This document shows, piece by piece, positions 4,345 through 38,875 of a stretch of DNA of 38,875 nt. The stretch is from positions 1 through 38,875 of IMG/VR virus record IMGVR_UViG_3300032073_000075. One strand, written 5' to 3'. Positions within the stretch are counted from its first letter, which is position 1; every line of letters begins with the position of its first letter. This DNA comes from a virus. The notes beneath the pieces are model-generated. The model was given only the letters and a program-made list of their open reading frames with translations, had not been told where the DNA came from and did no database searches. The position numbers and the translations under genes were made by a program.

Positions 4345-4363
4345 GTCACAGGTTTGGTCACAC
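4345..4363. repeat. paired GTCACA repeats, right arm of attP (candidate integrase arm sites)
   Basis: GTCACA at 4345-4350 and GTCACAC at 4357-4363, about one helical turn apart, in the same direction as the pair at 4153-4169. The second copy continues as TCACACTTTT, identical to 4164-4173. It overlaps the stop codon of the nuclease gene, so part of the match may be coincidental. Confidence 0.45.
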
Positions 4364-4762
4364 TTTTTGTAGGAGTTCAAATCTGTTGCGCCACTTTTCC
4401 AAAGGGTCATTCACTCCTGATGGAGTCCAGCTTGTTGTGGTTTTCAGCTTTTCTTTTGATGGAATAACAAACCAAACGCTGTGCGTCATTGCAAACAAGA
4501 TCCAAAAATGAAAATCATTTTTTTTGTATGTCACCCCGTTATTTCGTGAGGTGTGAAATCTGTATCTTGGTGATCTGTTGTCAGATTCACGCACTGGCAT
4601 TTCAGAAGACTTAACCTGAACCAAAACGCTGTGACCGTTTCGGTTTGTTGCAACAAGGTCAAATGGGGCAGGTGTCTCAGGGCGTGACACGTGCCAGTCA
4701 TGCCGCATTAATTCGCACGCTGTTTGTAATTCTCCGACAGCTCCTGACTTTAAGTTGTCCAT
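4358..4762 (-). CDS. PD-(D/E)XK nuclease-like protein at end of lysis cassette
   Basis: 134 aa. Glu11 (AVGELQTA), Asp35 (PFDLV) and Gln49-Val-Lys51 (LVQVKSSE) reproduce the E...D...QxK core of small PD-(D/E)XK nucleases. A C-terminal YRF / YKKNDFHFWILF / P-x-x-TSW pattern follows. A diverged homologue sits in the identical place in the second cassette (33847-34269). Start ATG overlaps the end of the o-spanin-like gene. The substrate is not known; small members of this fold include resolvases and homing-type nucleases. It is the last late gene before attP. Confidence 0.7.
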   Translation of the reverse strand: MDNLKSGAVGELQTACELMRHDWHVSRPETPAPFDLVATNRNGHSVLVQVKSSEMPVRESDNRSPRYRFHTSRNNGVTYKKNDFHFWILFAMTHSVWFVIPSKEKLKTTTSWTPSGVNDPLEKWRNRFELLQKV

Positions 4763-4962
4763 TACCTGCGCTCAATTTCATATTCGAGTTCAGCAACTTT
4801 TCGCAGTGCTGCCCGAGTCCAGTCAGGTGTGGTCTGTGCTGCTTTTTGAAACTGGGGGTGATCTGTCAGGGTCGAGACTCCATTCAGAGGCAGTCTCGTC
4901 TTGCACCCTATCAACAACAGCGGAATCAATAGCGCTATCAATTTCAGAAAGTTTATCTTCAT
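4762..4962 (-). CDS. outer-membrane spanin-like lipoprotein (o-spanin)
   Basis: 66 aa from the ATG at 4962. A hydrophobic signal MKINFLKLIALLIPLLLIGC ends in a lipobox Cys20, followed by a Pro/polar region and a C-terminal helical segment AALRKVAELEYEIER. Such lipoproteins pair with an inner-membrane spanin to fuse the membranes at lysis in Gram-negative hosts. The gene overlaps the preceding i-spanin-like gene in another frame over 140 bases, as Rz/Rz1 genes do. A longer TTG-start version (5004) adds a basic stretch ahead of the signal and is less likely. Confidence 0.65.
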   Translation of the reverse strand: MKINFLKLIALLIPLLLIGCKTRLPLNGVSTLTDHPQFQKAAQTTPDWTRAALRKVAELEYEIERR

Positions 4963-5074
4963 AGTTTGACTTTGCTTTTGCTTCACGAATCCTCGCAGCA
5001 ACAATCAAGAAAACCTTCTCAAGCACCGGCAGTGCTTTACATAGCGCCACGACTGCGCTGACAAGGTTAATCAC
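4823..5074 (-). CDS. inner-membrane spanin-like protein (i-spanin)
   Basis: 83 aa with a GTG start that overlaps the holin-like stop (GTGA). One N-terminal hydrophobic segment (about 1-28, LVSAVVALCKALPVLEKVFLIVAA) is followed by a charged, coiled-coil-like stretch (RIREAKAKSNYEDKLSEIDS) and a polar tail. Position, size and overlap with a lipoprotein gene in a shifted frame point to a spanin pair, though sequence identity to known Rz is not evident. Confidence 0.5.
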   Translation of the reverse strand: MINLVSAVVALCKALPVLEKVFLIVAARIREAKAKSNYEDKLSEIDSAIDSAVVDRVQDETASEWSLDPDRSPPVSKSSTDHT

Positions 5075-5241
5075 TGTGACGTATCTGTCTTGACCCCTTT
5101 GCGCAAAAACATTGCTAGGAGTGAAGTAATGACGATCTGAATCATGTTTGCCATAGGCATTAACTCAGGATCTTGAAGCCATGTTCCGACTGCAACAGCT
5201 ATCGCACCGGAGGCTGTGGCGTAAGTTTTTTTCCCTTTCAT
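5071..5241 (-). CDS. holin-like small membrane protein
   Basis: 56 aa: MKGKKTYATASGAIAVAVGT begins with a basic lead and one hydrophobic segment; after WLQDPELMPMANM a second segment (IQIVITSLLAMFL) and a basic end (RKGVKTDTSQ) follow. Two short membrane segments and a charged C-terminus match small phage holins, which form the lethal membrane lesion. It lies between another membrane protein and the spanin pair, with 4-base overlap to the next gene. Confidence 0.6.
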   Translation of the reverse strand: MKGKKTYATASGAIAVAVGTWLQDPELMPMANMIQIVITSLLAMFLRKGVKTDTSQ

Positions 5242-5247
5242 ATTTTT

Positions 5248-5427
5248 TTAGTATAACCCGTTGTCTTTATTATTTTTCTTAACTACTTGATAAATTTTGC
5301 AGCATATAAAAATCAATGTTGCAAATGAAATGCTGACTTGAAGCGCTTGACTCAATGGCAGATACCAAGTGCCGATTCCTGCTGAACCCGCACCGAAGAC
5401 TTGAACGTCATTGGTATCTACAAGCAT
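5248..5427 (-). CDS. small membrane protein of lysis cassette (homologous to 34773-34940)
   Basis: 59 aa. A Gly-rich N-terminus (FGAGSAGIGTWYLPLSQAL) leads into one membrane segment (VSISFATLIFICCKIY) and a basic tail (QVVKKNNKDNG). The gene in the same place of the other cassette has the same plan (G-rich lead, LSQ-LQ, membrane segment, KIY..K.NN). Conserved position beside the holin-like gene suggests a holin, antiholin or lysis regulator. Confidence 0.55.
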   Translation of the reverse strand: MLVDTNDVQVFGAGSAGIGTWYLPLSQALQVSISFATLIFICCKIYQVVKKNNKDNGLY

Positions 5428-5432
5428 TTTAA

Positions 5433-5831
5433 TTACTCAGCAGAAGTTTCTTCGATGACTTCAGCAACTGGCTCTTCAGCGACTGGCTCTTCGTTCACAA
5501 CCTGAACTTCTTCAATTTCAGCCTCTGGTGCTTTTTCTAAATTAAGATCAGCCAAAACAAGATTGCCGATGTACTCGTTATCAGAACCAGCAACCTCTGG
5601 AGTCCAGTTTGACCATTTCTCTTGATCCACCCTAAACAGTCCGTTGTATACGGGATTTGGGAACCACTGATCAACCTCTTCACCTTCATCGTTTTCGATG
5701 GTTCGCTTGCCGTATCCAAGGACATTGAATTGCATTGAGAACGGTGAATCGCTCGCTGAGTTTAATCCGATAACGAGCTTCGATATGTTCAAACCCTCTT
5801 CGGGCTTCGGGATAGTGTTTACTTGTATCAT
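5433..5831 (-). CDS. fibre-associated small protein (homologue of 35948-36292)
   Basis: 132 aa, unknown function. It begins MIQVNTIPKPEEGLNISKLV, contains WSNWTPEVAGSDNEYIGNLV and ends in a long acidic Glu/Val/Pro tail (about 100-132). The protein at 35948-36292 shares start, WSNWT, SDN-YI-LVLADL and an acidic tail, in the same position between a fibre-associated gene and the lysis cassette. A structural accessory, assembly chaperone or decoration role is possible. The start is 8 bases past the previous stop. Confidence 0.65.
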   Translation of the reverse strand: MIQVNTIPKPEEGLNISKLVIGLNSASDSPFSMQFNVLGYGKRTIENDEGEEVDQWFPNPVYNGLFRVDQEKWSNWTPEVAGSDNEYIGNLVLADLNLEKAPEAEIEEVQVVNEEPVAEEPVAEVIEETSAE

Positions 5832-6221: not shown

Positions 6222-8906
6222 TTATCCGTTAGTTGAGCGTGATATTTCGCGCCACGTGGTTCCGAATTTTATCAACATAATAGAATCATTCGCTTGTGAT
6301 AGTGTGAAATCGCCAGCGAGTCGCAAATTATCAGAATCGTCTTTCAATGTTACACTCCTACTAGTAACGCTGTTTAAAATTAAAATGCTGCCGGTGCTGC
6401 CTCCGTTAATAGTGTTAAGGTTATCGCTTGCAGCGTCTCCTTCGGTGTCAACAGTATGATAGCTGCTTGTAATAGTTATACCGCCGCTGGCAATAGTGAG
6501 TTCACTCGAACTGCCAAGCGTAGTAATTCCTGCAAGTTTTGCCTCTCCTGCAAGATAAAAGTCTTTAAAAGAATTCCCATTCTGACCGAGATCAACGGTG
6601 TTATTGTTAGTCGCACTTTGTGTCGCTGGTAGAATTGCGTTGGTAGCAAACGAAAAACCGCAGTGATTTACAACTGTTCCAGAAATAGTCAGATTGTTGC
6701 CGATTGTGGTTATTCTTCCAGCCTCGGTTCCGGTGCTGTCATTTACAACAATTTCACCAGCTCCGTCGATTACCATGCGTTCGGCTAAAGCTGACCCGCT
6801 GTGAGTGTAAAAACTCAGTTTAGTCTTAGCACCCGTGTTTTCTGCAATCGCCCGAATGCTCGCTACTTCAGTACCGGAGTGATGCGGTGCAAATGTAAGT
6901 CGGGCTTCAGTCCCTGCCGTTGTTGAAGAACCGGGGTCGTTGACTAAACGCAACTCTGCCCCTAATGCTCCGTCAGCGTTTTTGGTTATCGAGACGACCC
7001 CCGCCGAACTGACGCGTAATCGTTCTGTTACAGCTGTACCAGCATTTGTTGGGTTCGTATAAAAAGCCATATCGGAACCGTTTAATGCACCGATAAAACC
7101 TCTTCGAATAGTTTCGTTACCTAAGTTAACACCAACCCAACCAGTGCCGGTTGCTGCAATATCCAAAGCACCGGCTTTATTAGTCCCAGTCGCTTGGATT
7201 GTAAGAGTATTAGTTGTGTCAGCACTTAACGAATACGGGTCGGCTGAACCACCTATCGATACACGCCCCTCCGACGAAATCCGCATCCGCTCCACTGCCG
7301 CCGCAGCCGAACCACCGCCAAGAGCAGTTTTAAAAACAAGCTCGCCATTTGGCGCACCAGAACCCGCATTTTGAGCGCACTGAACCGCACCTAAAACGCG
7401 TGCACCTGCTCCGCTCGCATCGGTTGTGTAAAATTCTAATGTGCCAATATTTCCAGAATCAGAAGAACCCCAGTCTTTGGTGTTAGTTAATCTGAGTTTA
7501 GATTCTGTAGCATTGGTAACGGTAACGAGTCCCGCCGATGAAATCGTCATTCTTGCTACACCAGCGGTCGTAAAACCTAACTCGTTTGCTGCCGCTCGAT
7601 ACATACCTGTGTCGGTGTCGTCGTTAAACGAAAATGTCGGTGTACCAACGTCACTAACTGCCGCTCTCAACCTAGCTCCAGTTTGGCCAGCAACATTTGT
7701 TTCTAAAACATTCGTGCTAGTTTTAAATTCTGCAATACTAAATTCGTCTGCTACTATTTCACCGTCCGCAGGAGTTCGAGCAGTTGCCGCAGAAACTGAA
7801 ATTGCCTTACTGTTAAGTTGAACAATCTTCTGAGTCTGTAAAACTCCTGTCGCTGAAGCAGTTCCGTCTGCGGCTCCTGCTCTGTCCTGCACCATTAGCG
7901 ACTGCGTTGGATTAGCAAATGCTAGGTCGTAATCTGATACTGCTCCGATAGCCACACAGCTAACATTGTCCATCGTTCCCACGAAAGTGCTCCCCACTTT
8001 ACCTAAAATAACCCCACTTGAAGATGACTTAAGTGCTTCAAATTCGTGCGTGAAAGTTCCGTTGCCTGTTATTTCTGGAAGCGTAGCAATTGTGTTTGCT
8101 CCTCCATAGTCCCACAACTGCAAAACTCCATTAGCCGAATGCCCGCTTATGTCATAGGTAATTCGGTATTTTTTGCCAACAGTAATATTCCAATCGGCTC
8201 GACGGATATAAGCCCAGCCTCCTGCCGCTGCCCAAACCACATTATTAGTCCCGTAAGTTACGCTTGTTAAGCCCCATCCGGTTGTCCCTCCTGTGAATGT
8301 ACCGTTCGTAACTAAATTAGTCTGACTACCGTAAATCTCAGAAAATTTTAGATTTTTGTTCTCGAATTTTTCTTTAATTTCCGAACTGGATAACACCCGA
8401 TTATAAAACCGTGTGCGCGACAGTGTTCCTTCAAATAAATTGACCGCGCTTGAATAAGCAGAACCGATAAACGCATCACTACAAGAGTCTATACCGTGAC
8501 TTGCGCTTATTGTTGCAGTTCCTACAGAAACCCCATTGTCAAACAGAGTTGCTGAAGTTGAGTCAATTGTTACAACGAGATGATGAACCTTTAAATCGTC
8601 GCAAAGTTTAACGCCAAAACTTTTCCAAGAGGTGTTATCAAAAATGCCCCAGTTATAACTTATAGAGCTATGTGTGCCGAATATAAATCTCCCACCGTTT
8701 CCGAAATCTAAAAAATAGAGATTTGATGAACCAAACGAATCAGCTTTTAAGACAAACTCGAAAGAAAACTTTGTTCCTAAATCTGGAGGCGAAGCAATGT
8801 CTATGCGACCGGCCGCACCATCAAAATGTAGGCCGCCATTTTCCGCATTACTTAGCGAGCTTGTGACTTCGCCCGGTGTCGGGTTCTTTCTGTTAATTGT
8901 AATCAT
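6222..8906 (-). CDS. tail fibre / receptor-binding protein with LamG-type lectin domain
   Basis: 894 aa. Residues about 20-185 form a concanavalin/laminin-G-like domain (GGLHFDGAAGRIDI, HHLVVTIDS, FDNGVSVGTA, RTRFYNRVLSSSEIKEKFE). A second beta-rich part (about 195-310) resembles a carbohydrate-binding sandwich. From about 430 on there are repeated fibre units of the form ERMRISSEGRVSIG, ERLRVSSAGVVSIT and ERMVIDGAGEIVVND, separated by 50-70 residues, and a Gly/Asn/Ser-rich C-terminal tip. Such proteins recognise host surface sugars. Its LamG-coding 3' part is almost identical in DNA to the fibre gene at the right window edge. Confidence 0.88.
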   Translation of the reverse strand: MITINRKNPTPGEVTSSLSNAENGGLHFDGAAGRIDIASPPDLGTKFSFEFVLKADSFGSSNLYFLDFGNGGRFIFGTHSSISYNWGIFDNTSWKSFGVKLCDDLKVHHLVVTIDSTSATLFDNGVSVGTATISASHGIDSCSDAFIGSAYSSAVNLFEGTLSRTRFYNRVLSSSEIKEKFENKNLKFSEIYGSQTNLVTNGTFTGGTTGWGLTSVTYGTNNVVWAAAGGWAYIRRADWNITVGKKYRITYDISGHSANGVLQLWDYGGANTIATLPEITGNGTFTHEFEALKSSSSGVILGKVGSTFVGTMDNVSCVAIGAVSDYDLAFANPTQSLMVQDRAGAADGTASATGVLQTQKIVQLNSKAISVSAATARTPADGEIVADEFSIAEFKTSTNVLETNVAGQTGARLRAAVSDVGTPTFSFNDDTDTGMYRAAANELGFTTAGVARMTISSAGLVTVTNATESKLRLTNTKDWGSSDSGNIGTLEFYTTDASGAGARVLGAVQCAQNAGSGAPNGELVFKTALGGGSAAAAVERMRISSEGRVSIGGSADPYSLSADTTNTLTIQATGTNKAGALDIAATGTGWVGVNLGNETIRRGFIGALNGSDMAFYTNPTNAGTAVTERLRVSSAGVVSITKNADGALGAELRLVNDPGSSTTAGTEARLTFAPHHSGTEVASIRAIAENTGAKTKLSFYTHSGSALAERMVIDGAGEIVVNDSTGTEAGRITTIGNNLTISGTVVNHCGFSFATNAILPATQSATNNNTVDLGQNGNSFKDFYLAGEAKLAGITTLGSSSELTIASGGITITSSYHTVDTEGDAASDNLNTINGGSTGSILILNSVTSRSVTLKDDSDNLRLAGDFTLSQANDSIMLIKFGTTWREISRSTNG
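7525..7555. repeat. 31-bp exact patch shared with the other fibre gene
   Basis: The sequence acgagtcccgccgatgaaat continuing to ...cattcttg is identical at 37441-37471 in the second fibre gene, while flanks diverge quickly. It encodes the RMTISSAGLVTV unit in both. It is about 800 bases from the long identical block, so it is a separate patch of homology. Confidence 0.75.
8335..8593. repeat. near-identical block shared by two fibre genes (copy 1)
   Basis: This block matches 38617-38875 with two mismatches in 259 bases (t/c near 8349 and g/a near 8467). The match stops abruptly at 8335/38617 and is open-ended at the other side because the window ends. It covers the end of the LamG domain and the SSSEIKEKFENKNL linker. 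Confidence 0.95.
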
Positions 8907-8915
8907 AGCCGGCCC

Positions 8916-9224
8916 TTATTTATCGTAGAATGCAATTACACCATCGCCGGCATTTTCGACATCAATATAAAATTGTGCGTCTGTAAAATAATCGTCGTCG
9001 CTGTCGGCTGTGAATGTTATCGAGTCGCCAGGACTTAACGGAATGCCTGCACTGTCATTGCTTGAACCTGGTTGTATATAAATCTTGCCCGCGTTATCTG
9101 TGCGGGCCGCCTTCATGCCCACAAAAGTAAATGAATGCCCGCGCACTGAACCAGAGCCAAGAGCCTCCGGCGTGCCGGTTGCTGATACTGTCTTTATTAT
9201 GCTGCCAAATGTTTGCTGTGCCAT
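8916..9224 (-). CDS. stand-alone beta-rich domain protein, paralogous to C-terminus of 16753-17508
   Basis: 102 aa. It aligns along its length with the last ~100 residues of the tail-terminator-like protein: IIKTVSATGTPEALGS vs IVKTVSSTGTPEVLGT, GMKAARTDNAGKIYIQP vs GMKAARTLNAGNVYIQP, FYIDVENAGDGVIA vs FFIDVETAGDGVVA. Small proteins with a NxGxVYI...G..L.pG pattern are common on phage virions and may be decoration or adhesion domains. It sits between the fibre and an upper fibre/baseplate gene. Function unproven. Confidence 0.75.
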   Translation of the reverse strand: MAQQTFGSIIKTVSATGTPEALGSGSVRGHSFTFVGMKAARTDNAGKIYIQPGSSNDSAGIPLSPGDSITFTADSDDDYFTDAQFYIDVENAGDGVIAFYDK

Positions 9225-16752: not shown

Positions 16753-17508
16753 CTAGCGGGTATGAATTGCGACTACACCATCGCCAGCCGTTTCTACATC
16801 GATAAAAAACTGGTCGGCGGCAAAATGATTATCCTCTTGCCCTGCCTCAAATGTAATTGATGCCCCTGGTTCGAGCCTATATCCGGCTGTATCGTTGCCG
16901 CTTGCTGGCTGAATATAGACATTGCCAGCGTTTAAAGTCCTGGCTGCCTTCATGCCTTGAAATGTTATTGAATGGAATAATGTCGAATCTGTGCCAAGCA
17001 CTTCGGGCGTGCCAGTTGACGAAACAGTTTTAACAATAGTATTTAAAGCCGCCCGCAAATCTGAATGCCCAGTTGATACTAAATCTGAAGGGGCCGCCAA
17101 AACGTCAATTGATAAATCACAAACCCAATTTCTGTCCTCAACTGTTTTTGCTATGTTAAAACTCTTAGCTGCAAAAACTGTAACCTTTTCAGTTGCATCG
17201 CTTAAAGTTGAGGCGATGTTTGTGTCCATAAATAAATCACGAACAGTTGCGACGTGTGTTTGATGGTTTGCAAGCGTTGTGTCGTCCATTGATTCGACCA
17301 GTCGAATAATTAACTCACAATTAAAATTGCCTGTGCCTGGTATTGATTCCTCGCCGCCTTCACATATTACCAGGCAACGCGGTAAACTAAGCTCGTCATC
17401 ATCTTCGCCTTTAGAAACTGTGATACTGTAACCGGCAAAGGTGCTGTTTGCGTCTAGGATTGCCTTAGCGCGTGTTTCTAGTTTTTCCTCTAATGTATTA
17501 AAGCCCAT
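16753..17508 (-). CDS. tail terminator-like protein fused to a beta-rich domain
   Basis: 251 aa from the ATG at 17508 (a start at 17532 would overlap the previous gene by 22 bases; 17508 leaves a 2-base gap). Residues about 1-145 (LEEKLETRAKAIL, NCELIIRLVES, WVCDLSIDVLA) resemble tail terminator/completion proteins, which cap the tail tube and join it to the head. Residues about 150-251 are a second domain almost duplicated as the free-standing protein at 8916-9224. The fusion suggests the second domain projects at the neck. Not known to me as a described architecture. Confidence 0.6.
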   Translation of the reverse strand: MGFNTLEEKLETRAKAILDANSTFAGYSITVSKGEDDDELSLPRCLVICEGGEESIPGTGNFNCELIIRLVESMDDTTLANHQTHVATVRDLFMDTNIASTLSDATEKVTVFAAKSFNIAKTVEDRNWVCDLSIDVLAAPSDLVSTGHSDLRAALNTIVKTVSSTGTPEVLGTDSTLFHSITFQGMKAARTLNAGNVYIQPASGNDTAGYRLEPGASITFEAGQEDNHFAADQFFIDVETAGDGVVAIHTR

Positions 17509-17510
17509 CT

Positions 17511-18179
17511 TTAAAAGCCTGCCTTGCGCCAATCTCGGCCTAGTTTTCTGTTAATGTATGTTTTCATGTCTGCCATTGCTGCCGCCATTCCTAAACGTAA
17601 CCCTGCTTGAATTTTCTTTTGTGCGGTTCTGTTATTTTTGGTTGCGCTATTTACTACCAAGGCAGACGGTTTTAACTCTGACCTGGCGGCGACTGCATAA
17701 CCTTTAGGCGCTGCTTTGCCTTTTGTTAAACCTTTAGGCCAGCGCACTCGGTCGCGCCTATCAACCTTAAATGAAAGCGATTTGATTGCCGGCAACCAGC
17801 CAGCTTTTAAGAATCTTACAGCCTTTACTCTTTGGTTAATTAATTTCTGAGCCTGGCGTTCCAATTCCTTACCCCATACCAAAGCCTTGCCCGCTTTTCT
17901 GCGCCGGCTGTTTACGATACGAGCGGCAAAACTATCTTCCTTTAGAATGCGTTTGCCTTTGCGTAGTGCGCCTGTTTTCTTGTTGCGGCTTACCTTGTTA
18001 CCCGTTGCGCCAAGTTTATATTCTATCTGTGCAGGGTCGGCCGCGTCGGTTGCTTTCAATGCGTGGAATGCTAAATCAAGAGCCTTCTTGTTTACGATTT
18101 CTCGAAAACTTCTTTTATTAACCTTCGCGTATCTTCGCAAGGTGCGAGTAAATTCCGCGCTGTTAATTGTTAAGCTCAT
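17511..18179 (-). CDS. HK97 gp10-like tail completion / minor tail protein
   Basis: 222 aa, strongly basic with many Lys/Arg. It starts MSLTINSAEFTRTLRRYAKV and contains a central basic insert and a C-terminal GLGMAAAMADMK-like helix (GLRLGMAAAMADMKTYI). Length and place between head-tail joining and tail terminator genes fit neck/tail completion proteins such as HK97 gp10. Overlaps the previous gene by 4 bases. Confidence 0.55.
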   Translation of the reverse strand: MSLTINSAEFTRTLRRYAKVNKRSFREIVNKKALDLAFHALKATDAADPAQIEYKLGATGNKVSRNKKTGALRKGKRILKEDSFAARIVNSRRRKAGKALVWGKELERQAQKLINQRVKAVRFLKAGWLPAIKSLSFKVDRRDRVRWPKGLTKGKAAPKGYAVAARSELKPSALVVNSATKNNRTAQKKIQAGLRLGMAAAMADMKTYINRKLGRDWRKAGF

Positions 18180-32562: not shown

Positions 32563-32721
32563 TCATTTTGTGCATTTCTTTAGGTAATCATCTAGCGCCT
32601 GTTTGCTGATTCTTACCGTTCTATGTCCTAGCCTTTGCGCCTTAATTAGTTTAGCCGATACAAGCCGCTGCACCTGTCGCTTGGATACCTCTAAATATTC
32701 GGCCGCTTGTGGATATGTCAT
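32563..32721 (-). CDS. small helix-turn-helix protein, excisionase-like
   Basis: 52 aa: MTYPQAAEYLEVSKRQVQRL, then a K-x-R wing and SKQALDDYLKKCTK. Same HTH_17/MerR plan as 2280-2450 and 33067-33267. It overlaps the RlpA-like gene by 4 bases and precedes the SSB gene. Probably a DNA-binding regulator of the early block. Confidence 0.65.
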   Translation of the reverse strand: MTYPQAAEYLEVSKRQVQRLVSAKLIKAQRLGHRTVRISKQALDDYLKKCTK

Positions 32722-33095
32722 TTGCCGAATCTAATTAGTTCTAATTTAGGTTTACACAATCCGGCCGCTGGGTCGCAGATTTGGGCGAAGGCTTCACGGC
32801 TCAAATCAATAGCCCTGCCTAGTCTTTTATTTGGGCCTCTATCGTTTATTCTTACAATTACGTTTTTCGGCCCGAGGGTAACTTTTACCAGCGAATTAAA
32901 CGGAATCGGTTTGCCTTCCCATTCCCACATTGCAGCCGTCAAACCAGAGCCGTCGAAGCGCTCCCCGTTTGCTGTGATGCCGGCCGACTCCATGCCATAC
33001 CAGGAAGCCGTAACTGTCGGAGGTTCTGCATAGGGTCGCGACACAACCCACATAAACACAGCCGCACTACTTATTATTGTTATAATTGTTTTCAT
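32718..33095 (-). CDS. RlpA-like double-psi beta-barrel protein, candidate cell-wall lytic enzyme
   Basis: 125 aa from the ATG at 33095 (the longer start at 33125 adds KIKQKNQT). N-terminal hydrophobic signal (IITIISSAAVFMWVV), then ASWYGMESAGITANGERFDG, VKVTLGPKNVIVRINDRGP and RAIDLSREAFAQI, the barwin/RlpA double-psi barrel. In RlpA of Gram-negative bacteria this domain cleaves naked glycan. It is early, not in the lysis cassettes, and is the only wall-active domain in the window. An unusual place for a lysin; might aid entry, lysis or host remodelling. Confidence 0.7.
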   Translation of the reverse strand: MKTIITIISSAAVFMWVVSRPYAEPPTVTASWYGMESAGITANGERFDGSGLTAAMWEWEGKPIPFNSLVKVTLGPKNVIVRINDRGPNKRLGRAIDLSREAFAQICDPAAGLCKPKLELIRFGK

Positions 33096-33267
33096 TGTTT
33101 GGTTTTTTTGTTTTATTTTCGTCAATAAATTTTATTAAATCTTTTTGCTCAATTCTGTAAATTCTGCCAATTTTAAATGCTGTCAATCGGCCCTCTAAAA
33201 TGTATTCTCGCACTTTTTTAGGGGTTATGTGCAACATTTCTGACACTTGTTTGACTGTTTTAATCAT
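33067..33267 (-). CDS. helix-turn-helix protein, excisionase/MerR-like
   Basis: 66 aa. MIKTVKQVSEMLHITPKKVR, then EYILEGRLTAFKIGRIYRIE and a KDLIKFIDENK helix: the short excisionase pattern. First gene of the early block, directly downstream of an AT-rich gap with palindromes. Basic Asn/Lys-rich tail overlaps the RlpA-like start by 29 bases. Could be an Xis, a Cro-like regulator or an activator of the early operon. Confidence 0.7.
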   Translation of the reverse strand: MIKTVKQVSEMLHITPKKVREYILEGRLTAFKIGRIYRIEQKDLIKFIDENKTKKPNNENNYNNNK

Positions 33268-33544: not shown

Positions 33545-33868
33545 CTAAAGTTTGTTAAACCAGCGCCAGGCGCTTGGGTTCTGCTTCTTAAATAAGCAAA
33601 TGCCACTTGCCAAATTTGATACGACTTTTTCCTCCTCATCATCAAATTGCAACGCGTACCCATGGGCTAAAGCGTGCAAAACTTCATGCAAGAATACTTC
33701 TTGTAACGTGTCTGGGTTTAATGTCCTGGCTAAAACTATTTCCTGCTTGTTGCAATCGCACCAGCCGGCAGCCTCGGCCATTTCGCCGTCGTCGGTAAAC
33801 CTGACTTTGTAGGATAGGTTAAGAATCTGCAAACGCTTTGGCGCAGCTATTTTTCGAGTAGCTGCCAT
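33545..33868 (-). CDS. HExxH zinc metallopeptidase-like protein (SprT/ImmA-like)
   Basis: 107 aa. FLHEVLHALAHGY has His61-Glu62-x2-His65 with a candidate third ligand in the DDEEEKV segment (77-82). A compact KVRF..D beta region and GWCDCNKQEIVLAR precede it. Similar short phage proteins are metal-dependent peptidases of the SprT/IrrE type. It closes the right-hand late cassette and overlaps the nuclease gene by 22 bases. Substrate unknown; DNA-protein crosslink repair or repressor cleavage are possibilities. Confidence 0.65.
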   Translation of the reverse strand: MAATRKIAAPKRLQILNLSYKVRFTDDGEMAEAAGWCDCNKQEIVLARTLNPDTLQEVFLHEVLHALAHGYALQFDDEEEKVVSNLASGICLFKKQNPSAWRWFNKL

Positions 33869-34269
33869 GCCTTGAAATATGGCGCTAGAACGCCGTCAGT
33901 TGCCCCAGGCGACCAGTTATAACGCGAAACCTCTGCCAACTCTACCGGCAGAATAAAAAAGGCTCTATGCTCCAATCCTACAAAAATAATTATATCGCAT
34001 TCCTCTTTGGTGTATTTCTGCGCTGTCTGCCGGCATTTGCAGCCAAATGAATAGCGGCTTGAATGCTTGCCCTTTTCAATGATTGGCTTGGCTGAAGTCT
34101 TTACCTGGACGCGTTTAATTTTCTGGCCCTTGACGGCAGCAATATCAAACGAGGGTTGATGGGGCGACATACAAACTTGCCAGCCTCTTATAGCTAATTC
34201 TGCAGCGGCTAAATACTCACCTGCAGCGCTGGTTAGTAAAACGTCACTCGTTAGCGTTGGCCCTGTCAT
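33847..34269 (-). CDS. PD-(D/E)XK nuclease-like protein (homologue of 4358-4762)
   Basis: 140 aa. Glu18 (AAGEYLAA), Asp42 (SFDIAA) and Gln55-Val-Lys57 (VQVKTSA) align with the same residues in the left cassette's protein, with later YSF..., W-PGATDG. Same place after the overlapping o-spanin-like gene. Shared position in both cassettes suggests a conserved role, such as DNA processing at the end of the lytic cycle. Confidence 0.7.
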   Translation of the reverse strand: MTGPTLTSDVLLTSAAGEYLAAAELAIRGWQVCMSPHQPSFDIAAVKGQKIKRVQVKTSAKPIIEKGKHSSRYSFGCKCRQTAQKYTKEECDIIIFVGLEHRAFFILPVELAEVSRYNWSPGATDGVLAPYFKAWQLLEK

Positions 34270-34432
34270 TCAATGCGTCCATTATTTCTTTCATGCGGGC
34301 GTCAGGAACGAACCAGCCGGAAAACTCCGACTTAAACGATTTACCAGCGTGGATTTTTTCTACTGTCTTGTTGGCTGGTATTACGACTATTTTCGAGGCG
34401 CAACTTGTCAAGCACACTGTCAAGAGCAGCAT
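34244..34432 (-). CDS. outer-membrane spanin-like lipoprotein (o-spanin)
   Basis: 62 aa from the ATG at 34432, chosen because AAGGAG lies 7 bases upstream. MLLLTVCLTSC ends with lipobox Cys11, then a short polar ASKIVVIPANKTVEKIHAGK region and a C-terminal helix (VPDARMKEIMDALNDRA). It is nested largely inside the i-spanin-like frame, as in Rz/Rz1. The longer frame start at 34477 would put a basic stretch ahead of the signal. Confidence 0.6.
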   Translation of the reverse strand: MLLLTVCLTSCASKIVVIPANKTVEKIHAGKSFKSEFSGWFVPDARMKEIMDALNDRANANE

Positions 34433-34583
34433 TAAGTAGCTCCTTATCTTCGTTAGCAATTGCAGTGTCAATATCATTGGCTAACTCCTTATACTCGCTG
34501 TTGTCGTCTTCGAGTTTCTTAATGCGCCGCCTAGCCCACCAACCAACCAGGGCCGCAACTATACCAAGCGCGGCCTCTAGCAT
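34341..34583 (-). CDS. inner-membrane spanin-like protein (i-spanin)
   Basis: 80 aa. N-terminal hydrophobic segment ALGIVAALVGWWA, basic RRRIKKLED, then a coiled-coil-like stretch (SEYKELANDIDTAIANEDKE) and a polar Arg/Gln end. The ATG overlaps the holin stop (TAATG). Host of an out-of-frame lipoprotein gene. Counterpart of 4823-5074. Confidence 0.55.
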   Translation of the reverse strand: MLEAALGIVAALVGWWARRRIKKLEDDNSEYKELANDIDTAIANEDKELLNAALDSVLDKLRLENSRNTSQQDSRKNPRW

Positions 34584-34768
34584 TAGTCGTTCTTTTTGGC
34601 CAAACCTCGGCTAACACTGTAACCCATGCTGGCTAAAAGCGTTGAAGCCATGCCAAGCACTTTATCAATCTGGCTGCCGTCACTTATAACGCCAGAAGCG
34701 AATAAGAGGCCAAGAACGGCCGCTGCACTTGTGAACCAGAACTCTGTTGTTTTATAACCAGGTTTCAT
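34583..34768 (-). CDS. holin
   Basis: 61 aa: MKPGYKTTEFWFTSAAAVLG, then LLFASGVISDGSQIDKVLGM, ASTLLASMGYSVSRGLAKK. The start 'MKPG.KTTEFW' with two hydrophobic segments and a basic tail is a common small phage holin pattern. It would form membrane lesions at lysis. Counterpart of 5071-5241 with little direct similarity. Confidence 0.7.
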   Translation of the reverse strand: MKPGYKTTEFWFTSAAAVLGLLFASGVISDGSQIDKVLGMASTLLASMGYSVSRGLAKKND

Positions 34769-34772
34769 AAAA

Positions 34773-34940
34773 TTATTTGCCGTTGTTTTTAATTAAAAAA
34801 TAAATCTTCGCCACCAGGTAAACTAAACAGGCGGCCGATATACAAATTTGTAACAGTTGCGATAGCTCAACATAATAAACGCCTACGCCTCCCCCGCCCG
34901 CTCCGGCTGCCTTCACTATGTCTGCCACATCGTTCGTCAT
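34773..34940 (-). CDS. small membrane protein of lysis cassette (homologue of 5248-5427)
   Basis: 55 aa: MTNDVADIVKAAGAGGGGVG, YYVELSQLLQ, membrane segment ICISAACLVYLVAKIYFLI, KNNGK tail. It shares the Gly-rich lead, LSQ-LQ and KIY...K.NN pattern with the left cassette's protein. The start overlaps the stop of the DUF2589-like gene by a few bases. Confidence 0.55.
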   Translation of the reverse strand: MTNDVADIVKAAGAGGGGVGVYYVELSQLLQICISAACLVYLVAKIYFLIKNNGK

Positions 34941-35554
34941 TTGCTCTCAGTGTTTACGGGTTCCATTGCACTAACAACCATTTGAGTAAATTTAGCCATG
35001 CCCTCACAAGGCGGTTGCTGTTTGGCAGACAGTTTTATATCGTATTTACTACTGAAATCTGTCTCGCGTGTGTGCGTTGATTTGCTCGATACAACGCCCG
35101 TATGATGTTTTTCATGCGAAAAGCCTGCACTTGCTTTTACTCCCCAAAAGCCGCCAGATACTTCGCCGTGAGCTTCTGTTTTACTGCCGTCTGTTTGTGT
35201 GTTCCCCTTTTCGTCAACCTGGCTAGTATGGCTTTTGATTTCCAAACTAAAATCAATCTCCACGTCGTCAATTGCCAGGTTTGGAATTGTCACACAAGAG
35301 ATTAAAGGCATCTTTAGAGTTTGCTTTTGTGGCGTTGTTCGCCCCTCTATTAGTCTCTCGACCTCCACGTCTACTGTGCGAGTTTTTACCTTCTTAGTTT
35401 CTTCGTCGGTGGTAAAGGCGAACTCATTTATGAAGTCCAAAGTGACCATTGCTAAATCACGCTGGCCCTGGGAAGCCGCCGTCAATGGGTTAACGAGAAG
35501 GCTTTTTAAAGGCAAGCCTTGATAATCTTTTAACTGTTCTGAATCTGCAGCCAT
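34937..35554 (-). CDS. DUF2589 family protein
   Basis: 205 aa. LPLKSLLVNPLTAASQGQRD, LAMVTLDFINEFAF, then LKMPLISCVTIPNLAIDDVE and IDFSLEIKSH follow the DUF2589 pattern ('pL..li..PL.A...aq..la.at..fi...gf....PlL.ivpiPnl.id.v.i.F..ki'). The function of DUF2589 is not established to my knowledge. It forms a pair with the next gene and sits between a fibre-associated gene and the holin region of this cassette only, with no equivalent in the left cassette. Confidence 0.75.
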   Translation of the reverse strand: MAADSEQLKDYQGLPLKSLLVNPLTAASQGQRDLAMVTLDFINEFAFTTDEETKKVKTRTVDVEVERLIEGRTTPQKQTLKMPLISCVTIPNLAIDDVEIDFSLEIKSHTSQVDEKGNTQTDGSKTEAHGEVSGGFWGVKASAGFSHEKHHTGVVSSKSTHTRETDFSSKYDIKLSAKQQPPCEGMAKFTQMVVSAMEPVNTESK

Positions 35555-35561
35555 TTTTTAT

Positions 35562-35948
35562 TTATGTTGTCGGTATTTTTTTAACTAAACTGTCGCCGAT
35601 TCTTGCAAGCCCTTCAGCCTGGTCGCATCCAGCAAATTTTATTCTCACGTTAGCCATTCTTTTTTTTCTTAACTTGCCAAAACAGCTTTTTGCTTCTTTG
35701 CCTTCAAGGTTCAAATCAACTTCAAAATCTAATTCGCACTCCGCGATTTTTAGCGCGTTATGCGGCACAAGCGAAAAAACTGGCACCTCTACTGTCTTCT
35801 CGCCTAACTCAACCTTAACTGTTTTAGGTTTTCCATCATCATCGAAATAAGTCTTATTAAGATTCTCGATATAATCACCCTCTACCGTTTTCTGTGCTTC
35901 AGTAACGGCAGTGTATAGCGCGTGGAAAACGTCGCCGACCTTGTCCAC
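35562..35948 (-). CDS. DUF2589-related companion protein
   Basis: 128 aa. It starts MDKVGDVFHALYTAVTEAQK, then VEVPVFSLVPHNALKIAECE and LDFEVDLNLE, an echo of the 'P...ivp...l.I....ldf.v.' part of the DUF2589-like neighbour. A basic FGKLRKKRMANVRIKFAGCD segment follows. Probably the smaller partner of 34937-35554 (7-base gap). Two related beta-rich proteins in tandem suggest a heteromeric complex. Confidence 0.6.
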   Translation of the reverse strand: MDKVGDVFHALYTAVTEAQKTVEGDYIENLNKTYFDDDGKPKTVKVELGEKTVEVPVFSLVPHNALKIAECELDFEVDLNLEGKEAKSCFGKLRKKRMANVRIKFAGCDQAEGLARIGDSLVKKIPTT

Positions 35949-36292
35949 TATTCGGTGTTTTCGCTTGGCTCCTCTGTAACTGCTTCGACAGGCTCAATTT
36001 CTGGTTGTGTCATGTCTTGCTCTACTCCTAAATCAGCAAGTACTAAACCGCTAATATATGCGTTGTCACTGTCGGCACTTTCAGAAGTCCAATTACTCCA
36101 GTTTTCACCCTCCAATTTATAAAGCCCATTATACAACGGCAAAGGCATAAAATTGCCTTCAGTATCTTTACCGAATGCGCTTACTGCATACTGCAAAGAG
36201 TAAGGCGAGTCGTTCACGCTGTTTAAGGCAATGACAACTTTACTAAAGTTTTTGCCCTCATCAGGTTTTGGGATTACGTTAACTTGTATCAT
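35948..36292 (-). CDS. fibre-associated small protein (homologue of 5433-5831)
   Basis: 114 aa from the ATG at 36292, 8 bases past the previous stop, the same spacing as in the left cassette (5831). MIQVNVIPKPDEGKNFSKVV, LNSVNDSPYSLQYAVSAFGK, ENWSNWTSESADSDNAYISG and LVLADL match the left homologue. The longer frame start (36418) would overlap the upstream gene by over 100 bases and is rejected. Acidic Glu/Pro-rich tail. Role unknown; fibre assembly is plausible. Confidence 0.65.
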   Translation of the reverse strand: MIQVNVIPKPDEGKNFSKVVIALNSVNDSPYSLQYAVSAFGKDTEGNFMPLPLYNGLYKLEGENWSNWTSESADSDNAYISGLVLADLGVEQDMTQPEIEPVEAVTEEPSENTE

Positions 36293-36299
36293 GTCTAAA

Positions 36300-36560
36300 T
36301 TATTCGGTTGTTGCTGGTTCTTCGACTGGCAAAGATGCTTCATACGCAGCCTTGACCTCGTCAGTGAATAGCTTTTCTGCCAACTCAGCGACCAAGCCGT
36401 TTTCATTTGAAACGTCATCGGTTGGCTGAATGTTTCTGACTACCTCCTGTGATGAAATAACATTGCCGTCTTCACTGATTTCAGACGCTTCGTTTACTTG
36501 TAAACCGTATGTCGGATAAACCGTGACCGATTTTAATGATGTATTTTTTTCTAAGCTCAT
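36300..36560 (-). CDS. small fibre-associated hypothetical protein
   Basis: 86 aa: MSLEKNTSLKSVTVYPTYGL start with a beta stretch, then an acidic middle (EASEISEDGNVISSQEVV) and a helix VAELAEKLFTDEVKAAYEAS, ending EEPATTE. It takes the slot that 5839-6216 has in the left module, and both end with a similar Glu/Pro/Thr tag, but the bodies are not alike. Function unknown. Confidence 0.55.
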   Translation of the reverse strand: MSLEKNTSLKSVTVYPTYGLQVNEASEISEDGNVISSQEVVRNIQPTDDVSNENGLVAELAEKLFTDEVKAAYEASLPVEEPATTE

Positions 36561-36578: not shown

Positions 36579-38875
36579 TTAAGCAACCGTCATGCCTGTT
36601 GGTTTAGCGTCACCGTGTCCCGCTGTTAAAGTTGCAAACGCTGTGACGCTGTTCATTGCGTAAGAATTAGCTTCAGTAAATGTGATTGTTAAAGTCGTTC
36701 CACTCGTACTTGTCGCCACACTAATGTCTCCGCCAAGATTTGCGTCCATTTGAGTGATAGCAGTGATACTTGTGTTTGAAGCTATTGCATAACGTACAAA
36801 TGTCGGAGTTGCTGCGGTTGCCCCATCGCTACCCATCGCCATTCGGAGTTCGATTAGATGGTGAACCCAACGAGTCGCTTGGCTTGGGAATGTGAACGAC
36901 ACGGCAATTGTGTGGTCAAGCCCCGCAACGTGTTTGACGTAATTGGTAACATATCCATCTCCAATTTGCGTGTCTCCGGTAAATTTGGCTAGGCCCGCAT
37001 TATTAATATTTAAAACTTCGGTTCCCGTGCTTGAATTATTGTGGCTGCTAATTCGCATAGTTGGTGTTCCGCTTGAACCAGCGCGATGTCCACTTATTAA
37101 AAATCCGTAGTTATCAGACACAGAAGTAGATAATGCTATCGACGTGAGACCAGTTGTGTTCTGCGTTCCCGAAGGTAATAATTTAAGTGCAGCACTCGAA
37201 AACGGAGTGCCAGTGGTTGTGTCTTGCGGTTTGTTAATTGTTACGGTTCCAGCCGTACCAATTCCTAAGCGTTCAGTACCGTTCGTTAAAAATTTATACG
37301 CCAACCCTACGCCAGAGTTACTTAAACTGTTAAAATTAGCAGAACCGCCTTTGCAGTTCATAAAAATGCTATCTCCGTTCAAAGAACGAACAACCTTTAA
37401 GCCGGAATTAAAACTATCATCAACCCCAGCTTTTACAGTTACGAGTCCCGCCGATGAAATCGTCATTCTTGGACTCGTCAACGTGTCCGTTCCACTATTG
37501 TTTTGAGTAAAGAAATCAATTCTACTCGATTGATAATTGGAACTTCCACCGTCCCAATCTGCATCCGCAACGAAATTAATCTTCGCGCCTGTGAGTGGTG
37601 GAGAAGCGGCATTGTCCGAACCTTGTCCAAGGATAGTTCCGATTACGTCATTAGCGACTATTGAAGTATCTTTAGCCCACAGACTTAGGTGAGCCGGATT
37701 ATTACTGCCTCCGTCTGAAAGCACTTGAACAGCTCCAGTCGAAGAAATCGACATTCGCTCAATTAATGCATTTGCCGCACTGCCGTAAGACTTGAAAGAA
37801 AAGTTACCTTGTACATTACTGCGAGCAATGAATTGAGCCACGTCTCCAGAGGAAACAATATCAACTGCTCCGTGGGCGTGGTTTTCGTCCGATACCCTTA
37901 ACCCGTAACCGTGTGAATCAATTGCAGTTGAGCCGGAACCATTACCAGTAACTTGCATTTGCTGAACTGGTGCGCCTTGGTTGACTCCAATTTTACCGGC
38001 AGAATCAATTTTTAAACGTGACGTTCCTGCGGTTCTAAACTCCATCGCATTTGAGGAGTGTGAGTATTCAATTCTACCAGCGTTGTTATCTGCGCTATCT
38101 CCAAAGAATATATTTGCCGCACCATTTGTTGGCGTAAGAATTGAGATTCCTGCTTGCGATTGATTAGTGTCAATGACAAGAGCGTCTGCAGTAGTATCTG
38201 CCGTTGCCCCGCTTGCTCCCTCGTACACTCGTAATTTTCCAGCAACAAGCTCATTGTCGGCTGGTGTAATTGCACTTGTACCAATACGAGCCGCGACCGC
38301 TGAAATTTGTATTGGCTTAGAAATAGCCTCAACCCCACTTGCCGAAATCGTGGCATCGACAGAATTAGTCGAACGGTCTGCCAACATCAAACTAGCTGTA
38401 GGCGATGCTTCAGAAAGGCAGTAATCTGTGACCGCACCAATTTGAACGACAGTATCGTTAGCGTCTAGCGTAACCGAGCCTGTTGCTGTGAATTGTGTTC
38501 CAATATTATTGTTCGCCGCTCCAACAGTTGTAAAATCAACTCCGTCTCTCGCTGTGATTCTGTAGCGTTTACCATTGGTAGTTGTGCCAGAATTTATTGT
38601 CGTCTGACTCGCCCACATCTCAGAAAATTCTAGATTTTTGTTCTCGAATTTTTCTTTAATTTCCGAACTGGATAACACCCGATTATAAAACCGTGTGCGC
38701 GACAGTGTTCCTTCAAATAAATTGACCGCGCTTGAATAAGCAGAACCAATAAACGCATCACTACAAGAGTCTATACCGTGACTTGCGCTTATTGTTGCAG
38801 TTCCTACAGAAACCCCATTGTCAAACAGAGTTGCTGAAGTTGAGTCAATTGTTACAACGAGATGATGAACCTTTA
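36579..38875 (-). CDS. tail fibre / receptor-binding protein, truncated by right window edge
   Basis: The frame is open from the window edge; 764 residues are visible. It begins within a LamG-like domain (KVHHLVVTIDS) that matches the left fibre almost base for base, then a different body with repeated fibre units (SRLKIDSAGKIGVN, ERMSISSTGAVQVL, PRMTISSAGLVTV, ERLGIGTAGTVTI) and a C-terminal region (HTIAVSFTFPSQATRWVHHL). An internal GTG at 38678 is not the real start. Host-recognition role inferred from family. Confidence 0.85.
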   Translation of the reverse strand, partial: KVHHLVVTIDSTSATLFDNGVSVGTATISASHGIDSCSDAFIGSAYSSAVNLFEGTLSRTRFYNRVLSSSEIKEKFENKNLEFSEMWASQTTINSGTTTNGKRYRITARDGVDFTTVGAANNNIGTQFTATGSVTLDANDTVVQIGAVTDYCLSEASPTASLMLADRSTNSVDATISASGVEAISKPIQISAVAARIGTSAITPADNELVAGKLRVYEGASGATADTTADALVIDTNQSQAGISILTPTNGAANIFFGDSADNNAGRIEYSHSSNAMEFRTAGTSRLKIDSAGKIGVNQGAPVQQMQVTGNGSGSTAIDSHGYGLRVSDENHAHGAVDIVSSGDVAQFIARSNVQGNFSFKSYGSAANALIERMSISSTGAVQVLSDGGSNNPAHLSLWAKDTSIVANDVIGTILGQGSDNAASPPLTGAKINFVADADWDGGSSNYQSSRIDFFTQNNSGTDTLTSPRMTISSAGLVTVKAGVDDSFNSGLKVVRSLNGDSIFMNCKGGSANFNSLSNSGVGLAYKFLTNGTERLGIGTAGTVTINKPQDTTTGTPFSSAALKLLPSGTQNTTGLTSIALSTSVSDNYGFLISGHRAGSSGTPTMRISSHNNSSTGTEVLNINNAGLAKFTGDTQIGDGYVTNYVKHVAGLDHTIAVSFTFPSQATRWVHHLIELRMAMGSDGATAATPTFVRYAIASNTSITAITQMDANLGGDISVATSTSGTTLTITFTEANSYAMNSVTAFATLTAGHGDAKPTGMTVA
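37441..37471. repeat. 31-bp exact patch shared with the other fibre gene (copy 2)
   Basis: Identical to 7525-7555, encoding the RMTISSAGLVTV unit of this fibre. It lies about 1.1 kb from the long identical block; the corresponding distance in the left gene is about 0.8 kb, so the patch is out of register with the long block. Confidence 0.75.
38617..38875. repeat. near-identical block shared by two fibre genes (copy 2)
   Basis: Matches 8335-8593 with two mismatches. The block probably extends beyond the right edge, since the left copy continues into the rest of the LamG domain. Confidence 0.95.

Follow-up and report, generated by a model that had tools for sequence, protein, structure and literature searches.

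Two adjacent genes of the DUF2589 family, here called S and B, are near-obligate partners in viruses and bacteria, and their surroundings suggest that the pair is an undescribed component of lysis-type cassettes. In our preferred reading, to which we give roughly even odds, they form an accessory two-protein module for lysis or envelope breaching, probably as a hetero-complex. The pair was studied in a 38,875-bp virus record whose genes are on the minus strand; this whole stretch is referred to as the window. The following features are used below.

34937..35554, minus strand: DUF2589-B, 205 aa; PF11655 97.2 bits, E 1.5e-27; putative Ser-rich amphipathic hairpin in mid-protein.
35562..35948, minus strand: DUF2589-S, 128 aa; PF11655 46.9 bits, E 4.7e-12; lacks the Ser-rich hairpin.
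35072..35245, minus strand: segment of B, residues ~104-161; Ser-rich, polar/hydrophobic alternation, presumed hairpin with a conserved W-G tip.
35948..36418, minus strand: fibre-associated gene, upstream of the pair; 54% identical to left 5433-5831, aligned from residue 43.
34773..34940, minus strand: holin-like one-TM protein, 55 aa, assigned by sequence; its start overlaps the stop of B.
34583..34768, minus strand: holin-like small membrane protein, 61 aa, assigned by sequence and position; no significant family match (Pfam, PHROG).
34341..34583, minus strand: inner-membrane spanin-like protein; weak PHROG Rz-like match, E 0.0016.
34244..34477, minus strand: outer-membrane spanin-like lipoprotein; lipobox LTSCAS by eye, weak PHROG Rz-like match, E 0.0043.
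32718..33125, minus strand: RlpA-like protein; matches NCBIfam rlpA at E 3.5e-17 without reaching the curated cut-off.
4762..5831, minus strand: left cassette (comparator), with fibre-associated, two holin-like and spanin-like genes and no pair.

Both scores exceed the curated cut-off of 23 bits for PF11655 (DUF2589), in agreement with the family assignment made in the first-pass annotation. Against the relative L013, which is ~91% identical at the nucleotide level in this region, dN and dS were 0.007 and 0.22 for S and 0.006 and 0.24 for B, values that mark S and B, as judged from sequence comparison, as real genes under strong purifying selection. Overlaps of 1-4 bp join the pair to the flanking genes: the GTG start of S overlaps the stop codon of the gene before it (TAGTG), and the stop of B overlaps the start of the holin-like gene that follows (ATGA). 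The pair had earlier been proposed to be a cargo or moron insertion with its own benefit. A moron has its own promoter and terminator and a foreign composition. In the pair region, promoter-like and terminator-like sites were not above those in shuffled sequences, and the GC content was that of the phage. With overlaps on both sides, the pair is an integral part of the lysis operon, and its identification as a moron was not supported. No PADLOC defence model matched S or B of the window or their bacterial homologues, which spoke against the defence function also proposed. Searches of PHROGs, NCBIfam and the 50,697 deposited phage records of INPHARED gave no match for the S/B pair of the window.

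The right cassette carries the pair between the fibre-associated gene and the holin- and spanin-like genes. In the left cassette, the fibre-associated gene at 5433-5831 is directly followed by the holin-like gene at 5248-5427 with nothing in between, as the first-pass annotation had described. Both cassettes share the gene order fibre-associated, holin-like, holin-like, overlapping spanin-like pair and PD-(D/E)XK-like gene. For the holin-like protein at 34773-34940, PHROG and Pfam searches gave no match, and homologues occupy the same place in the left cassette (5248-5427, 46% identity) and in L176, L179 and L181 (68-70%). The fibre-associated gene at 35948-36418 probably starts at an internal ATG (MIQVNVIPKP). 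The two spanin-like genes of the right cassette, 34244-34477 (lipoprotein) and 34341-34583 (inner membrane), overlap, and the RlpA-like protein at 32718-33125 is a possible peptidoglycan-cleaving enzyme of the phage. The PD-(D/E)XK nuclease-like genes that follow the spanin-like genes in both cassettes (33847-34269 and 4358-4762) are only ~30% identical.

The two cassettes do not belong to one phage genome. Positions 38602-38875 repeat positions 8320-8593 within the fibre gene, with 97.4% identity over 274 bp, which gives a repeat unit of ~30.3 kb. The related record G001 (= L013), 30,910 bp long, covers most of 8.8-36.3 kb at 91-96%. Both of its ends map to ~26.06 kb of the window, and this suggests a complete, circularly permuted genome. 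G001 has a single cassette, in which the DUF2589 pair is present. Considering the repeat and the single cassette of G001, the window most likely combines a phage unit of ~30.3 kb with ~8.3 kb from a second, diverged copy; positions 1-8.3 kb would be this second copy, derived from either a tandem prophage or a chimeric contig. The left and right cassettes are a contrast between two related phages, so that the earlier claim of a pair in one of two cassettes stands as a contrast and falls as a statement about one genome. An integrase, early genes and a lysis cassette are all present within the left 8.3 kb, and the contig thus holds more than one phage genome unit. No close relative of this part was present among the eight related records, apart from one 92-bp match in G005. 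The window has two copies of a ~100-aa domain (16753-17532 and 8916-9224), one forming a gene of its own near the fibre and one making up the end of a different late protein; the copies are ~60% identical when those of relatives are compared.

The slot occupied by the pair was variable among relatives. Nine loci, one of them G001, were retrieved with the gene adjacent to the left fibre as query, and a scan with the left fibre-associated protein retrieved only G001. DUF2589 was absent from the eight records other than G001, of which several are fragments and three show the cassette itself. The holin-like gene of L179 (G003) directly follows the fibre-associated gene without an insert. In L176 (G002) and L181 (G005), these two genes are separated by a one-TM gene assigned to phrog_18771 (E 2.7e-11 and 3.9e-7, respectively); in L033, another member of phrog_18771 lies immediately upstream of the pair (E 4.3e-6). 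Of the six cassettes seen, two carry the pair (the right cassette and G001), two the one-TM gene and two an empty slot, the pair being absent from the left cassette, G002, G003 and G005. The pair is linked and variable among close relatives, in line with the first-pass annotation, and a search for homologues of it in left-type cassettes of relatives found none.

To determine how general the pairing is, IMG/VR was searched with a B alignment. At least 279 stretches had relatives, and 80 were kept for locus analysis. Adjacent S and B genes were found in 77/80 of these B-retrieved loci, and the contigs of the other three end where the partner would be. Among loci retrieved with S, both genes were present in 77/77. 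Together, S and B occurred in 154/157 viral loci, the B- and S-retrieved sets sharing some contigs, with the remaining three cut by contig ends. Both gene orders were seen. The same pairing was found in bacterial loci from several phyla (79/80), and each of six whole bacterial genomes had exactly two DUF2589 matches, close together. The family is sporadic in bacteria, with matches in 3 of 274 Gammaproteobacteria drawn (one being the query genome) and in 10 of 198 Bacteroidota drawn, centre genome included. Some Bacteroidota among L288-L296 have a single DUF2589 match and are exceptions to the pair rule; other exceptions in this set are ~97-aa proteins covering only the first third of the DUF2589 profile. 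On the Vibrio plasmid pVDT1 (L012:394-9105), a type I secretion-like transporter is encoded close to a pair, as is a protein annotated with a TcdA/TcdB-type glycosyltransferase domain.

Neighbours of the viral pairs were tallied after dereplication to 29 clusters (S at 80% identity). Small TM genes, called from hydropathy alone, had a density of 0.42/kb up to 1.2 kb from the pair and of 0.16, 0.14 and 0.09/kb in the bins beyond. At least one such gene lay within 1.2 kb in 21/29 clusters, an endolysin-type hydrolase of the seed families lay within 2 kb in 8/29, and one or the other was near the pair in 23/29. Pfam confirmed neighbours of the GH24, GH19 and M15 families. In L021 a holin-like gene directly follows the pair (phrog_1296, E 5e-4), and in L029 an Rz-like spanin lies just after it (E 1.7e-17). 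No hydrolase is near the pair in several clusters (e.g. L060, L079, L046 and L076), where the pair usually adjoins a zinc-ribbon protein of 67 aa or structural genes. This zinc-ribbon protein stands beside the pair in 14/29 clusters (e.g. L071:7002-7205), including contigs of up to ~270 kb, either instead of or besides lysis-type neighbours.

In bacteria, the surroundings of the pair include regulators and hydrolases, with few phage genes. In 79/80 loci the pair is accompanied on the same strand by a third gene encoding a protein of ~90 aa (e.g. L121:8682-8957), at a distance that rarely exceeds 300 bp; searches of Pfam and NCBIfam gave no match for the protein. A peptidoglycan hydrolase was found within 2 kb of the pair in 57/80 loci, or 19/39 after dereplication, leaving 20/39 dereplicated loci without one at this distance. 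Counts not dereplicated, with seeds from families first seen near the pair, were 57 hydrolases in the 309 kb up to 2 kb from the pair and 2 in the 771 kb lying 2-8 kb away. These hydrolases are of phage type and belong to GH19, GH108, GH25, GH24 and a muramidase family, and 56/57 are co-directional with the pair. An N-terminal hydrophobic stretch was lacking in 51/57, the six exceptions being GH25 proteins. Because of the origin of the seeds, a seed-free Pfam scan was made of 149 near and 131 far proteins of the bacterial loci. Near proteins included GH108 (4), PG_binding_3 (5), GH19 (4), PG_binding_1 (3) and SLT (2); among the 25 Pfam families listed for far proteins, which leave out most singletons, there was no hydrolase-type family. 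Small TM genes were present at 0.13/kb within 1.2 kb of bacterial pairs compared with 0.07/kb beyond 2.5 kb.

The mid-protein segment distinguishes B from S and contains 20% Ser, compared with 9% in the whole proteins. Its polar/hydrophobic alternation gave a mean z of 1.78 against shuffles (52 sequences), and a control segment gave -0.14. W137 and G138 at the presumed hairpin tip are nearly invariant. This pattern is compatible with an amphipathic beta-hairpin that might meet the membrane, and also with a soluble sheet. AlphaFold2 models had low confidence, hairpin included, with pLDDT 52 for B (alignment of 32 sequences) and 57 for S (34 sequences), and Foldseek and VIA-align yielded no reliable fold match for the B model (best Z 3.2); for these reasons no fold is claimed for S or B. 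Sequence and profile searches of the PDB returned nothing for B. For S, there were short weak matches, the best of which, to designed 'Pizza' proteins (E 0.0025, 39 residues), was judged to be due to chance.

Comparison with known systems showed partial likenesses. Beta-hairpin pore-forming proteins build an oligomeric beta-barrel pore from an inserted hairpin. The Ser-rich alternating segment of B with its aromatic tip resembles such amphipathic hairpins; however, B has no sequence or fold match to them, and its model is of low confidence. Hydropathy windows were positive in only 7/176 S and 28/164 B family members; most S and B thus have no hydropathy-predicted TM helix, and identity as a holin, which has one or more TM helices, was rejected. 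A two-component spanin pairs an inner-membrane protein with an outer-membrane lipoprotein; this identity was likewise rejected, as few family members had a positive hydropathy window, no lipobox was seen by eye in S and B of the window, and no PHROG matched. Type 10 secretion systems combine a holin, a peptidoglycan hydrolase and a spanin in one locus for protein release. The bacterial DUF2589 loci share with them the signal-less hydrolase, whereas they carry S, B and the ~90-aa gene and show no clear holin enrichment. Both two-component spanins (Rz/Rz1; PMC6139136) and S/B are two-protein envelope-breaching accessories, known or proposed, of phage lysis cassettes; in contrast to spanins, S and B lack an inner-membrane anchor or lipobox and are paralogues of each other, and spanin-like genes are present besides them in the same phage. 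Phage-derived lysis-type genes serve bacterial protein release in Yersinia entomophaga (PMC10847048) and Salmonella (PMC10109510). In the literature searched, no function was described for DUF2589, in agreement with the first-pass annotation, PF11655 was not mentioned, and no description was found of the S/B pairing, the third gene or the link to lysis genes and hydrolases. The Pfam entry PF11655 gives no function, and the family has one passing mention, for Archaeoglobus genes AF0414-AF0417 (PMC3949148).

From the observed pairing, linkage, overlaps and hairpin pattern, we infer a model in which the diverged DUF2589 paralogues S and B very probably form a joint hetero-complex, would be made late together with the lysis genes, and would aid the phage, together with holin, endolysin and spanin, in opening the cell envelope. 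The Ser-rich hairpin of B with its Trp-Gly tip may insert into the membrane or lie on it, and S, without a hairpin, may assemble with B or restrain it. In bacteria, the pair and the ~90-aa protein may serve the release of a hydrolase or of cell contents, in a manner resembling type 10 secretion. Against a role as a lysis accessory, the phage already has holin-like and spanin-like genes and the pair is missing from close relatives, and the pair is therefore dispensable.

Several other explanations were weighed. S and B might be a minor structural or assembly component encoded where the tail-fibre operon ends, close to lysis genes only because the two share a position at the end of the late operon. 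The pair does follow fibre or fibre-associated genes in the window and in L003-L005, and, by eye, it comes after a capsid-like gene in L076 and a portal-like gene in L035. We consider such a virion role unlikely, since the pair is missing from relatives whose adjacent tail and lysis genes are homologous, bacterial pairs have few phage genes nearby, and the place relative to structural genes varies while the enrichment of small TM genes and hydrolases stays. Somewhat less credence is given to a cytosolic complex that holds the endolysin or muramidase, for timing, inhibition or chaperoning, without membrane contact. It would account for the tight co-directional linkage to hydrolases without signal sequence and for the few predicted TM stretches; however, one complex would hardly serve neighbours as different as GH19, GH108, GH24, GH25 and M15, and the amphipathic hairpin of B would have no role.

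The least probable of these readings, in our judgement, is a moron or cargo pair unrelated to lysis that acts in host fitness, superinfection or defence. It is consistent with presence and absence among relatives and with the sporadic distribution in bacteria. No own promoter stands out, though, both neighbours are overlapped, no defence model matched, and the survey of phages and bacteria showed recurrence at preferred rather than random sites, beside lysis-type genes or peptidoglycan hydrolases. A more far-reaching version of the lysis module is also considered unlikely. S and B, in bacteria with the ~90-aa protein, would then constitute a novel lysis protein class, being a soluble complex of two subunits that assembles a beta-hairpin pore and gives signal-less peptidoglycan hydrolases access to the wall without a classical holin; it would be a swap-in cassette part in phages and would be kept for release in own operons by bacteria of several phyla.

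With these results, a widespread family without an assigned function gains a concrete and testable context, namely a near-obligate pairing in the vicinity of lysis-type genes and peptidoglycan hydrolases. If the lysis-module reading is true, phage lysis would gain a component beyond holin, endolysin and spanin, and Proteobacteria, Bacteroidota, Campylobacterota, spirochaetes and Firmicutes would have an unstudied release system.
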